From a virus: a stretch of DNA of 33,209 nt. Below, one piece after another: positions 4,104-7,516 of this stretch. The position numbers and the translations under genes were made by a program. The stretch covers positions 1-33,209 of the IMG/VR virus record IMGVR_UViG_3300009788_000228; one strand, given 5' to 3'. How positions within the stretch are numbered: the first letter of the stretch is position 1; every line of letters starts with the position of its first letter. The notes beneath the pieces were generated by a model that was not told the DNA's origin, did no database searches, and saw only the letters and a program-made list of their open reading frames with translations.

Positions 4104-4174
4104 TCTAGGTTCGTCTAATGGTAGGACGCTGGACTTTGAATCCGGTAACGTTGGTTCGACCCCAGCACCTAGAA
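4104..4174 (+). tRNA. tRNA-Gln (anticodon TTG)
   Basis: The full cloverleaf is visible: acceptor TCTAGGT/ACCTAGA, D arm GTCT-AATGGTA-GGAC, anticodon arm CTGGA-CTTTGAA-TCCGG with anticodon TTG, and T arm GTTGG-TTCGACC-CCAGC, with discriminator A. It starts six bases after tRNA-Trp. It decodes CAA. Confidence 0.92.
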
Positions 4175-4178
4175 CAAG

Positions 4179-4238: not shown

Positions 4239-4313
4239 GCCACATTAGCTCAGACCCGGCAGAGCATCCGCCTTGTAAGCGGAAGGTCGCAGGTTCGATG
4301 CCTGCATGTGGCC
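4239..4313 (+). tRNA. tRNA-Thr (anticodon TGT)
   Basis: A complete cloverleaf: acceptor GCCACAT/ATGTGGC, D arm GCTC/GAGC, anticodon arm TCCGC-CTTGTAA-GCGGA with anticodon TGT, and T arm GCAGG-TTCGATG-CCTGC. The base after the acceptor stem is C, unusual for a threonine discriminator. It decodes ACA. A promoter-like TAGACA begins four bases after it. Confidence 0.93.
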
Positions 4314-4316
4314 CAA

Positions 4317-4382: not shown

Positions 4383-5828
4383 GTGGGCCTTCTTGACAAA
4401 GTTAATAAGTGGTTCAATCGAAAGAAAGAAACCAAAGCCACCAGGCTGCAAAATCCTGGGGGTTTGTCAATTCCGTTATCAAATACCAGAGATGGGCAAG
4501 CAAAGAGTCTCCGAGTAGACTTTCTCTCTATCACAAAATGGGCCTACCGAGGCAACGAGCTTGTACACTCTTGTATGGATGAAAGAAGCCGGGCACTCAA
4601 GGAGGCTCCTCTTAAAATATTTGACGAAAAAGCGGATGAATGGGATGAAGACAACCCCGTCGAACTTTTGATGCGAAACCCAAACGCATTCCGCGACGAG
4701 GCCGAACTGCTTGAGACTATTGAGCAACACCTAGCACTTACCGGCAACGCTTTTGTTCGCAAAGTTAGAGACACAAGTGGCAGGGTGCGAGAACTCTGGA
4801 CAATGCAACCCCACCTAGTCAAAATCGTTCCAAGCGCTACAACCTTCATCTCCCACTACATATACACGGTTGATTCCGTAGAATACCCACTTCCAGTAGA
4901 GGATGTAGTCCATCTGTTATATATCGACCCAGCGGATGACTACTATGGAATATCTCCACTGGTAGCAGCTGCCAAGCGCATTGATGCAGACAGCGAACTT
5001 GGGACGTTTACCAAGCAGCTGCTCTTGAACATGGCAGTCACTAGTGGTTGTTTTGTTACCGACAAGAAGCTCAACCCAGAAGAGCGAGCGATTATGGAAG
5101 ACAAAATGGCGAGTCGTTATGTCGGCGCGATACGCGCTGGTCTCCCGATGGTTCTTTCGCACGGCATGAAGTGGGAACAGACCTCTATGACGATGAAAGA
5201 TTTAGAGGTTGGTAACTTGGCCGCTATTGTAGAGAGTCGTATTTGCTTGGCTCTCCACGTACCAGCCATTGTCGTTGGGGCCAAGGTCGGCCTCGACCGC
5301 TCGACGTTTACCAATGTCAGAGAAGCACGGGAATACATGTATGAAAACACAATCGCCCCCGAGTGGCAAATGATAGCAGACAAACTCGGCGGTGCGTTGC
5401 TTCTAGACTTCGGATATACCAAAGGGAACTTGAGAGCTAGGTTCGATACTTCACAGATTAAAGCTCTCCAAGAGTCCGAGCAAGCACTTTGGGACAGGAT
5501 ACGCCAAGCGGATTCTCTCTCACTTATCGAGAAGCGGCTCAAGCTGGGTTATAAGAAAGAATCGAACGGTGCTGTCTTTATAGATGCCAACAAAGTGGCA
5601 GCTAACCTTGAGACCGGCGAGATGCAACCACGGGTACAAGAAATAGAGGCGGGTGTCAAGAAATCACAGAACCTAGAAGATGGCGGAAAGACAGCCGAAG
5701 CTGACACTGGCCCTAAGAAAGCGGCCCCCAAACCAGAACAGGAAGCGAAAACTAGCATAGACGGCGACTATATTGATGACGATGATTCCGATGCCTCGCG
5801 GAGCCTAAGTAAAAAAAAACTGAAATAA
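4383..5828 (+). CDS. Portal protein (HK97 family)
   Basis: A 481-residue protein forming the ring at the capsid vertex through which DNA enters and leaves and to which the connector and tail attach. HK97-type features include LVHSCMDERSRALKEAPLKI (residues 60-79), HLALTGNAFV (116-125), DVVHLLYIDP (174-183) followed by YGISPL (188-193), and a long C-terminal helix. The last 70 residues are charged and low in complexity. It starts at GTG 4383 with AAAGGAG eight bases upstream. The end is unusual: a run of nine A at 5811-5819 lies three codons before the stop, and the following gene is open in the -1 frame straight through this point, so part of the ribosomes may make a portal-MuF fusion. Confidence 0.93.
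   Translation: MGLLDKVNKWFNRKKETKATRLQNPGGLSIPLSNTRDGQAKSLRVDFLSITKWAYRGNELVHSCMDERSRALKEAPLKIFDEKADEWDEDNPVELLMRNPNAFRDEAELLETIEQHLALTGNAFVRKVRDTSGRVRELWTMQPHLVKIVPSATTFISHYIYTVDSVEYPLPVEDVVHLLYIDPADDYYGISPLVAAAKRIDADSELGTFTKQLLLNMAVTSGCFVTDKKLNPEERAIMEDKMASRYVGAIRAGLPMVLSHGMKWEQTSMTMKDLEVGNLAAIVESRICLALHVPAIVVGAKVGLDRSTFTNVREAREYMYENTIAPEWQMIADKLGGALLLDFGYTKGNLRARFDTSQIKALQESEQALWDRIRQADSLSLIEKRLKLGYKKESNGAVFIDANKVAANLETGEMQPRVQEIEAGVKKSQNLEDGGKTAEADTGPKKAAPKPEQEAKTSIDGDYIDDDDSDASRSLSKKKLK
5800..5820 (+). promoter_or_regulatory. Candidate -1 frameshift site linking portal to MuF
   Basis: The run A9 then C (5811-5820) contains A AAA AAA in the portal reading phase at 5813-5819, a slippery heptamer of the dnaX kind. 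GGAG (5800-5803) lies nine bases upstream of it, a spacing at which Shine-Dalgarno-like sites stimulate -1 slippage. After slippage the ribosome reads 32 sense codons (5819-5914) and continues into the MuF gene. Transcriptional slippage on A9, or a one-base assembly error in the homopolymer, would give the same fusion. Confidence 0.5.
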
Positions 5829-5914
5829 AGGCACTGGACTCTATCCCCACTATCGAGCAAAGAAAACTCCTGCTTGAGAAACTAGTCAATAATGAAGAGA
5901 CCCACGTTAAGGTT

Positions 5915-7516
5915 ATGACAGCGGCAGCTGCTCACATGTTTGGCGAGATGGCAGAGGAGTTTCGCCTTTATTTGAACCAAGAGGGAATCAAGGGCTACGA
6001 TATCAAAGCACAAATCACTGGCATTCGTAAACTCCGACCGCATATAGAGCAGATAGTCAAGCGCAATATGCAGGCCAACATCACGGACGTAATCAAAGAA
6101 GGTGCAGAGGGAACGCGCTCAGTGGTGGGCACATCTTTTGGATTGACAAATGACGAGGCTGTGAAGTTCGCTAGTGAACACACATCCGCCCTCGCAGGGG
6201 AGATAGCAGAGAACTCCGTGGAAACCGTAAGAGAGGTCATCACAGACGGAATCAAGAACGGTCGGCCAGTTAAAGAGACTCGAAAGCTCTTGGAAGAGCG
6301 GTTTGCCGATTGGGGCGCTGACAGAGCAGAGATGGTAGCACGTACCGAGACACTTAGAGCAGCCAACATGGGTTCGCTTGAAGTCTTGAAGAAGGGCGGT
6401 GTTGATTATAAGCAGTTTATAGCCGCCCCAGACGCTTGTGGTACTTGCTTGGCTATACACGAACAGGTCTATAGACTCAAGGATACCTTTCTTGCTAAAG
6501 GAGACAGCCTTAATACGGCTACTGAGACATTCAAAAACGGCTACATGTCTATGCCAGCGCCACCCATCCACCCGAGATGCCGTTGTACTATCGGCGGAGT
6601 TCCTGGCAGCATGGTTGACGAGCGAAGTTATATGACCGTGAAGTCGGGCAAAAAGAGCGCGGATGGCATAAACGAAGTAATGGGTATGTTTGGCGAGCTA
6701 GACCCTGCCAGAGAGTTTAGTCACATGAGGAATGGGCTTAGAGACACGGTAATCACTCGAACGGTTGAAAATGGAACCGCCGAAATAACCATACGGCGTT
6801 ACGGAGACAGAATGAGCGTTTTCTTGAAAGACATGGGAACCTCTGTCCCAACTGCCGAAAACTGGGCCGGAGAGGTAGGACAGCTTGCATATGGTGACCT
6901 CCACACTTGGTTGCCTGATGCCCAAGGAGCAGGCAATGTCAGCATTCGTCTTTTAGCTGGTGACTCTGGTAGTCTGGTCTCCTTATCATCGAAAGCAGTA
7001 GCAGAACCAACCGTCTTTACATTTTCAGATGCAGCCAGCAAAGCAGCATGGGTAGATAAGTTTGGCAGCATAGCGGAAGCGTACCCAGAACCCACCAAGC
7101 TGCTTACACTGGTTAAAGATGAAAAGTTCGCGCTAAAGTATAGCAACAATGTGGCAGAAACCTATCCGACAGGAAGCAAAGAGGCCATACGCTTTAATAG
7201 CAACTTTACACGGGCCAAATTAGATAGGGAATATGCCAAAGCGTATAGAGATGGGTATACGACCATAAGGAATGCTGATGAAGCAGCTACCCATGAGTTC
7301 GGGCATGTGGTTCACACGTACCTAGAGAACCAGGGGATTGATTACACTAATCTAAGACAACCAGGAGAGAAAGTTATAAGTGACTACGCCACAAGAAACC
7401 ATAATGAATATTTTGCGGAACTGTTTACTAAATTCCACGAACAGGGTTTTGATGAAAGCAGAAAAGACATGCGAGAACTGAAATTTGTACTACAAGCAGG
7501 AGGCTTGATACCATGA
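5915..7516 (+). CDS. MuF-type head protein with C-terminal zincin metallopeptidase domain
   Basis: Counted from ATG 5915 the protein has 533 residues. Residues 1-230 are the MuF (phage Mu gpF/SPP1 gp7-like) domain: a long helical part, ARTE (142-145), CGTC (175-178) and HPRCRC (219-224). MuF proteins sit at the portal and can enter the cell with the DNA. The C-terminal part (about 240-533) ends with HEFGHVVH (460-467) and NEYFAELF (497-504), the HExxH plus downstream glutamate arrangement of zincins, closest in outline to anthrax lethal factor; Glu498 or Glu502 would be the third ligand. ATG 5915 has only AAGG two bases upstream. The same frame is open back to 5813 with protein-like sequence but no ATG, GTG or TTG, so the true N-terminus probably comes from frameshifting out of the portal gene. 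Confidence 0.8.
   Translation: MTAAAAHMFGEMAEEFRLYLNQEGIKGYDIKAQITGIRKLRPHIEQIVKRNMQANITDVIKEGAEGTRSVVGTSFGLTNDEAVKFASEHTSALAGEIAENSVETVREVITDGIKNGRPVKETRKLLEERFADWGADRAEMVARTETLRAANMGSLEVLKKGGVDYKQFIAAPDACGTCLAIHEQVYRLKDTFLAKGDSLNTATETFKNGYMSMPAPPIHPRCRCTIGGVPGSMVDERSYMTVKSGKKSADGINEVMGMFGELDPAREFSHMRNGLRDTVITRTVENGTAEITIRRYGDRMSVFLKDMGTSVPTAENWAGEVGQLAYGDLHTWLPDAQGAGNVSIRLLAGDSGSLVSLSSKAVAEPTVFTFSDAASKAAWVDKFGSIAEAYPEPTKLLTLVKDEKFALKYSNNVAETYPTGSKEAIRFNSNFTRAKLDREYAKAYRDGYTTIRNADEAATHEFGHVVHTYLENQGIDYTNLRQPGEKVISDYATRNHNEYFAELFTKFHEQGFDESRKDMRELKFVLQAGGLIP

Follow-up and report, generated by a model that had tools for sequence, protein, structure and literature searches.

How is a MuF protein made when its open frame leaves the portal gene in a different phase and offers no common start codon near the boundary? 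This question is raised by the window analysed here, the whole 33,209-base stretch of IMG/VR virus record IMGVR_UViG_3300009788_000228, in which an HK97-type portal gene ends just past a run of nine adenines (A9) and a MuF frame continues in -1 phase. Judged from sequence and its comparison among relatives, the portal-MuF boundary is very probably a programmed slippage site, at which RNA polymerase, the ribosome or both would slip to give a free portal as well as a portal-MuF fusion.

Architecture of the portal-MuF boundary

The boundary comprises the following features.

4383-5828, plus strand: HK97-type portal gene (PF04860, E=5e-54), whose zero-frame product of 481 aa ends in ...SKKKLK
5800-5803, plus strand: GGAG, a possible weak Shine-Dalgarno (SD)-like stimulator, not conserved in the relative L002
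5811-5819, plus strand: A9 slippery run, containing the in-phase -1 heptamer A AAA AAA (5813-5819)
5813-7516, plus strand: MuF open frame, -1 relative to the portal gene, 567 residues, with PF04233 at 6224-6592
5819-5914, plus strand: linker of 32 codons, in the -1 frame only, without ATG, GTG or TTG and conserved as protein
5826-5828, plus strand: TAA that terminates the free portal in the zero frame
5915-5917, plus strand: first ATG in the MuF frame, an unlikely start (inside MuF homology, weak SD pairing, Met absent in the relative L007)

The portal open reading frame starts with GTG and ends in AGT AAA AAA AAA CTG AAA TAA, which confirms the A9 followed by CTG AAA TAA that the first-pass annotation had pointed to, along with its placement of A AAA AAA in the right phase for a -1 slip. 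The A9 lies six bases 5' of the TAA and is the only A or T run of at least eight in the entire window. The +1 frame meets an immediate stop after the run (AAC TGA, 5818-5823); together with the zero-frame TAA, two of the three frames at the A9 end in free portal. A run of at least nine A or T with early stops in the wrong frames is the arrangement associated with transcriptional slippage of the Thermus dnaX type. The -1 frame, as had been claimed, is open from 5813 into the MuF gene, and ATG 5915 is its earliest ATG, GTG or TTG. By arithmetic, the predicted fusion has 479 + 565 = 1044 residues, in agreement with the length proposed earlier, and the unslipped product has 481.

The order of domains, an HK97-type portal followed by a MuF domain, is that of the portal-MuF family phrog_2662, to whose profile of 717 positions the locus matches collinearly (portal at 63-478, MuF frame at 537-712). 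Pfam matches give the gene order portal (PF04860), MuF (PF04233), prohead protease and major capsid; the portal-MuF pair sits upstream of the latter two and hence is not the G/GT pair that precedes a tape measure gene.

Coding of the linker and the start at 5915

The linker shows the constraint of a coding sequence in the -1 frame. In a comparison of the window with L002 that rests on this one pair and 11 nucleotide differences, codons 5819-5914 have an omega of 0.21 in the -1 frame versus 1.85 in the zero frame, the former being equal to that of the MuF gene proper (0.21 at 5915-6700). This small comparison agrees with the wider protein alignment, in which the linker can be aligned with fused relatives; a coding downstream frame is thus present ahead of any common start codon. 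A corresponding omega for the portal core was discarded because its codons were misaligned.

Homology to MuF begins at about 5849, so that ATG 5915 lies 66 nt inside it and a start there would remove 22 residues of MuF homology. Moreover, the Met of this codon is not present in L007. The ribosome site at 5915 had been called poor, and its SD pairing is indeed weak (-2.9 versus -7.9 at the portal start), but pairing is equal or weaker at 4 of 12 other window starts scored, so this weakness decides nothing alone. An internal MuF start at 5915 is disfavoured by the homology upstream, the selection on the linker as protein and the missing Met in L007; ribosomes therefore very likely reach the linker from the portal gene.

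Close relatives in fused and split form

L002, from sample 3300009788, encodes proteins 89-90% identical to those of the window and has the same A9 and split arrangement. L003 also has the A9 and the split, is 99.97% identical over 13.5 kb, and may come from the same population as the window; it corresponds to IMGVR_UViG_3300024265_001017, a longer contig (59,520 bases) of this genome. In three further relatives, L005 and L006 from sample 3300028610 (portal identity 83% and 79%) and L007 from sample 3300024265 (77%), portal and MuF share a single open frame. At the position matching the A9, their joins have runs of A11, A11 and A10, respectively, directly followed in the -1 frame by TAA, TAA and TGA, and in the +1 frame by TAG within at most four codons. 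In these loci the fusion is encoded in the DNA frame and the free portal would arise by slippage, the reverse of the window. The fused gene in homologues, the conserved A run at the join and the conserved 32-residue linker for which the first-pass annotation had suggested looking are accordingly all found among these relatives, the linker being conserved as protein in the -1 frame.

Distribution of junction runs among portal-MuF loci

The survey covered 241 sequences, among which were the window itself, records of named phages and loci that overlap on one contig. Both domains were present in 196, and removal of near copies left 122 representatives. Three of the scans took the best 80 of 121, 552 and 177 relatives, and the survey is therefore a sample around Silence-type and window-type queries rather than a census. 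The representatives comprise 58 fused loci and 34, 26 and 4 loci split in the -1, +1 and 0 frames, respectively. A junction A or T run of 7-11 occurs in 20 of the 122, namely in 13 of the 58 fused and 7 of the 34 split -1 loci, and in 0 of the 30 representatives split in +1 or 0. These counts exclude L149 and L187 (fused; A-rich junction runs of 7-8, no early stop in both frames) and L177 (split -1; an A7 beyond the portal stop and a MuF gene that has its own ATG), with which they become 15/58 and 8/34. The run is 9-11 long in 17 representatives and T7 in three. Among split -1 representatives it is A9 in the window group, L238, L139, L144 and L145, T9 in L199 and T7 in L042. An in-phase heptamer is found at each of the 20.

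The feature extends to cultured phages: the fused genes of Bacillus phage Silence and Geobacillus phage GBK2 carry T9 at their junction. A junction A9 is present in the environmental genome MW202444 (ctLpZ231). No junction A or T run of at least seven is present in the named fused genes of StopSmel, Aussie, Maja, Parageobacillus phage, Kuleana, mu1/6, Roos and FlyingTortilla, or in the fused Exiguobacterium and Anoxybacillus plasmids. The Exiguobacterium plasmid has C CCT TTT instead; in fused L049 and L247 (Exiguobacterium plasmid NZ_CP073756.1), this junction heptamer is immediately followed by TGA in the -1 frame. Heptamers other than A or T runs also precede a -1 MuF frame in two split loci, as C CCT TTT TAG in L214 and G GGT TTT TAG in L158, the latter on a long branch of the portal tree.

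Searches of genome contigs with the window-clade portal gave no matches, and those with the Silence-type alignment gave two alphaproteobacterial portals at loci without a MuF match. The distant match L246 likewise had no MuF match. In L056 and L057, each portal open reading frame is interrupted by one in-frame stop inside the domain, possibly a recoded stop or an error.

Statistics and evolution of the site

Of the runs of at least nine in the 58 fused genes, 11 lie in the junction, which makes up 11.3% of the length, and one lies outside it (binomial p 4e-10, with kinship not corrected). Shuffling of synonymous codons gives 2.8 such junction runs as the expectation, and only runs of this length are in clear excess. 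An in-phase heptamer with a -1 stop within one codon occurs at 10 of 58 fused junctions, whereas the remainder of the genes would predict 2.2; these ten include L149, L187 and L224, none of which is counted as a site. At most four sense codons separate the run from a stop in both frames in L005, L006, L007, L015, L016, L027, L029, L037, L039 and L114. The both-frame stops are nearer than at 96-99% of random codons in eight loci (L006, L007, L015, L016, L027, L029, L039 and L114; fraction 0.01-0.04), and L037 is intermediate (0.13).

The portal tree contains 117 portals, since five of the 122 representatives, L114 among them, were too short. The slip label, carried by 19 rows, changes six times on this tree, with at least five changes forced by well-supported branches, versus a mean of 17.9 for shuffled labels. 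About six slip groups result: the window clade; L020; L147/L181/L139/L144/L145; the Silence-type group (eight rows, support 91, drawn open); L046; and L238. Both fused and -1-split forms occur in three of them, the window clade, the L147-L139 clade and the Silence group, in which the -1-split rows are L199, next to L027, and L042, among Silence and GBK2 relatives. Over the 51 bases after the A9 in L139/L144/L145, the -1 frame has omega values of 0.21, 0.34 and 0.07; those of the zero frame are 1.8, undefined for lack of any synonymous change, and 1.0. Selection is seen in the former frame but not in the latter. A slip site retained while the base frame flips is the pattern that would be expected if both products were needed.

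Several results weigh against a slippage site at this boundary or against its generality. A counted slip site is lacking in 45 of the 58 fused representatives, and MuF dosing by slippage is therefore not general. For junction runs of at least seven, the shuffling gives no clear excess (15 observed versus 10.6 expected). Early both-frame stops are unremarkable in L020, L046, L147 and L181 (0.22-0.30), and the sites of L046, L147 and L181 are weak, lying in Lys-rich linkers with 0.38-0.50 expected each. Possible MuF starts occur shortly downstream of the run in L199 (ATG, 4287) and L145 (GTG, 3531), and L214 has an ATG in the MuF frame upstream of its heptamer. No conserved downstream RNA structure was found at the junctions, with only L199 low (percentile 4). 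Finally, a structure prediction for fused L006, in which the slip region appears as coil, is too poor to help (mean pLDDT 47.5).

Ribosome, RNA polymerase and other explanations

The GGAG that had been proposed as a stimulator does exist at 5800-5803, but it is not conserved, since L002 has GTGG in its place (pairing -1.5 versus -5.8), and a conserved SD stimulator was rejected for the window on this ground; the downstream fold, at percentile 70, provides no conserved stimulator either. Across the 20 loci with a run, an SD-like element ranks in the best 5% of gene positions in five (L037, L039, L042, L020 and L199). These include all three T7 representatives (L037, L039 and L042), at the best 1-5%. 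The A10, A11 and T10 sites lie at percentiles 18-90, and in the twelve A9/T9 representatives low values are confined to L020 (1%) and L199 (2%), with the window at 14%. Nine A's or T's constitute a known RNA-polymerase slippage site (PMC5009743), and runs listed for such slippage have T more than 8 (PMC3711429). The lengths A9-A11 and T9-T10 accordingly suit RNA polymerase, and the T7 sites and the C CCT TTT and G GGT TTT heptamers point to the ribosome. Ribosomal frameshifting may operate at the short sites and transcriptional slippage at the long runs, A9 being open to both. At the A9 of the window, transcriptional slippage is judged slightly better than an even bet and ribosomal slippage slightly worse than one. 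The -1 frameshift fusion first proposed for this locus is thus supported by the comparative checks, but these do not distinguish the ribosome from RNA polymerase, as A9 suits both.

Neither machine need act alone. If ribosomal -1 frameshifting of the E. coli dnaX or G/GT type by itself made the fusion, the in-phase heptamer at all 20 runs, the T7 sites shorter than RNA-polymerase slippage runs (PMC3711429), the well-ranked SD-like elements at the T7 representatives and the heptamers immediately before a stop in L214 and L158 would be accounted for. Runs of at least nine, however, always hold an in-phase heptamer, so that phase says nothing at such sites; T7 runs located away from the junction show the same preference of phase (4/5), for which reason T-run phase was dropped as weak evidence for the ribosome; the A10, A11 and T10 sites lack an SD-like element; no RNA structure is conserved; and the stops in the two other frames fit transcriptional slippage. 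The ribosome as sole agent is accordingly given appreciably less than an even chance. Transcriptional slippage alone, in which RNA polymerase would add or drop A or U residues and the mixed mRNAs would be translated normally into both products, comes only just short of even. The run length, 9-11 at most sites, and the closure of both wrong frames within a few codons in ten fused cases speak for it, as does the same design in Thermus dnaX, where a run of nine with stops in both other frames gives about half full-length product (PMC5009743); it leaves the T7, C CCT TTT and G GGT TTT sites unexplained.

Explanations that dispense with slippage in expression are less probable. Phase variation of the DNA, with replication slippage producing A9 and A10 genomes in a population, some encoding the fusion and some the free portal, would fit the different run lengths of close relatives (A9, A10, A11) and the flips of base frame within groups. 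It is nevertheless unlikely, since the A9 has been kept, together with the zero-frame stop and the -1 linker, across approximately 10% protein divergence between the window and L002, and long runs of the kind required are lacking at the T7, C CCT TTT and G GGT TTT sites. Separate synthesis of MuF, beginning at ATG 5915 or at a rare linker start codon, draws on the presence of that ATG, on CTG, ATA and ATC codons in the linker and on weak SD pairing being not rare in the window; it is made very improbable by the homology, linker selection and absent Met described above and by fused relatives that have no separate start. Least probable of all is a homopolymer sequencing or assembly error concealing a simple single fusion gene with A10, which had earlier been named the main alternative. 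Although A9 is an error-prone length and fused relatives exist, the A9 recurs in three contigs, one of them a 90% relative, and sample 3300024265 contains an A9 split gene (L003) as well as an A10 fused one (L007), each run with its matching arrangement, which argues against systematic error. Similar junction runs occur in cultured phages, and -1 splits at slippery runs are present in four further contig sets (L042; L199; L238; L139/L144/L145). Even an A10 join, with TGA as the following -1 codon, would still look like those of the fused relatives.

Proposed mechanism

Programmed slippage at the portal-MuF boundary is argued for by the sequence of the run, its phase, its conservation, the coding selection on the linker, and its recurrence with fused and split flips in other lineages; from these we infer the occurrence of slippage, a slip rate, a mixed ring and a role in dosing. 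During transcription, extra A's added on the A9 would shift the frame in part of the mRNAs; during translation, a -1 slip on A AAA AAA would do so in part of the ribosomes. Frame-shifted reads would produce the 1044-residue portal-MuF fusion, and unshifted reads would terminate two codons past the run and produce the 481-residue free portal. Portals are rings of twelve, and the two products may co-assemble in a single ring, in which case the slip rate would set how many MuF domains, with a possible metallopeptidase tail, each capsid receives.

On a wider scale, the chances are about even that portal-MuF slippage is a recurrent, separately evolved route to an unequal portal ring, consisting mostly of plain subunits with a few others that bring MuF into the capsid, and that selection keeps the slip site as the base frame changes freely from fused to split and back. 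MuF-type proteins are loaded in 'a few' copies (PMC6316719), which has been ascribed to portal binding, with what sets the number not stated in the available texts. If the proposal is true, the MuF number would be set by a slip site at the portal, which would also break the symmetry of the portal ring, and some 'portal' annotations would hide two products or be accompanied by a split MuF gene with the wrong start.

Relation to known systems

Portal-MuF fusions are already known, and programmed slippage is established for dnaX, for tail chaperones and for certain capsid genes; what would be new is the placement of slippage at the portal-MuF boundary. In dnaX of Thermus thermophilus (tau/gamma), an A/T run of nine and stops in the other frames likewise give a short product, but the fused product is in the DNA frame (PMC5009743), whereas the DNA frame of the window gives the short one, and the gene encodes a DNA polymerase component rather than a phage structural protein. 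The -1 frameshift of E. coli dnaX and the reversed two-ORF (open reading frame) dnaX of Chlorobi offer a parallel to the fused and two-ORF forms around a poly-A site (PMC3711429, PMC5009743), again in a different gene; no conserved stimulatory structure was found at the portal-MuF junctions.

Among phage genes, the tail assembly chaperones G/GT (Xu 2004, cited in PMC6316719) are also assembly genes extended by -1 slippage. They belong to the tail module, whereas portal-MuF is a head-portal pair in which the extension is a whole MuF protein and both base frames occur. The major head protein of phage A2 (Garcia 2004, cited in PMC10885494) is produced in two forms via -1 slippage, but it is a major capsid protein. 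Known portal-MuF fusion genes (phrog_2662; Microbacterium EA3/EA5/EA8/EB phages, PMC7302621; Arthrobacter Maja) share the domain order and the collinear match but are annotated as plain fusions, and the available text of PMC7302621 mentions frameshifting for tail chaperones only. PRFect lists VIP2 and MuF-like genes among predicted, unannotated shifts and points to VIP2-MuF fusions (PMC10885494). The word 'portal' is absent from the accessible main text of the recoding review and of the GeneTack study, and no description of portal-MuF slippage came from the literature searched, which most subscription papers lay outside.

Other features of the window

The C-terminal part of the MuF frame contains a further motif.

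7292-7306, plus strand: HEFGH motif, a possible zincin-like metallopeptidase domain, with Pfam matches below cut-off

In the corresponding region of fused L006, zincin-like metallopeptidase Pfam matches are stronger than those of the window and lie just under the cut-offs. Immediately 5' of the portal gene are a tRNA-Gln (TTG) at 4104-4175 and a tRNA-Thr (TGT) at 4239-4314, and a Mom-family DNA-modification gene (Pfam PF25680, E=1.6e-23) is located near the left end at 665-1447.

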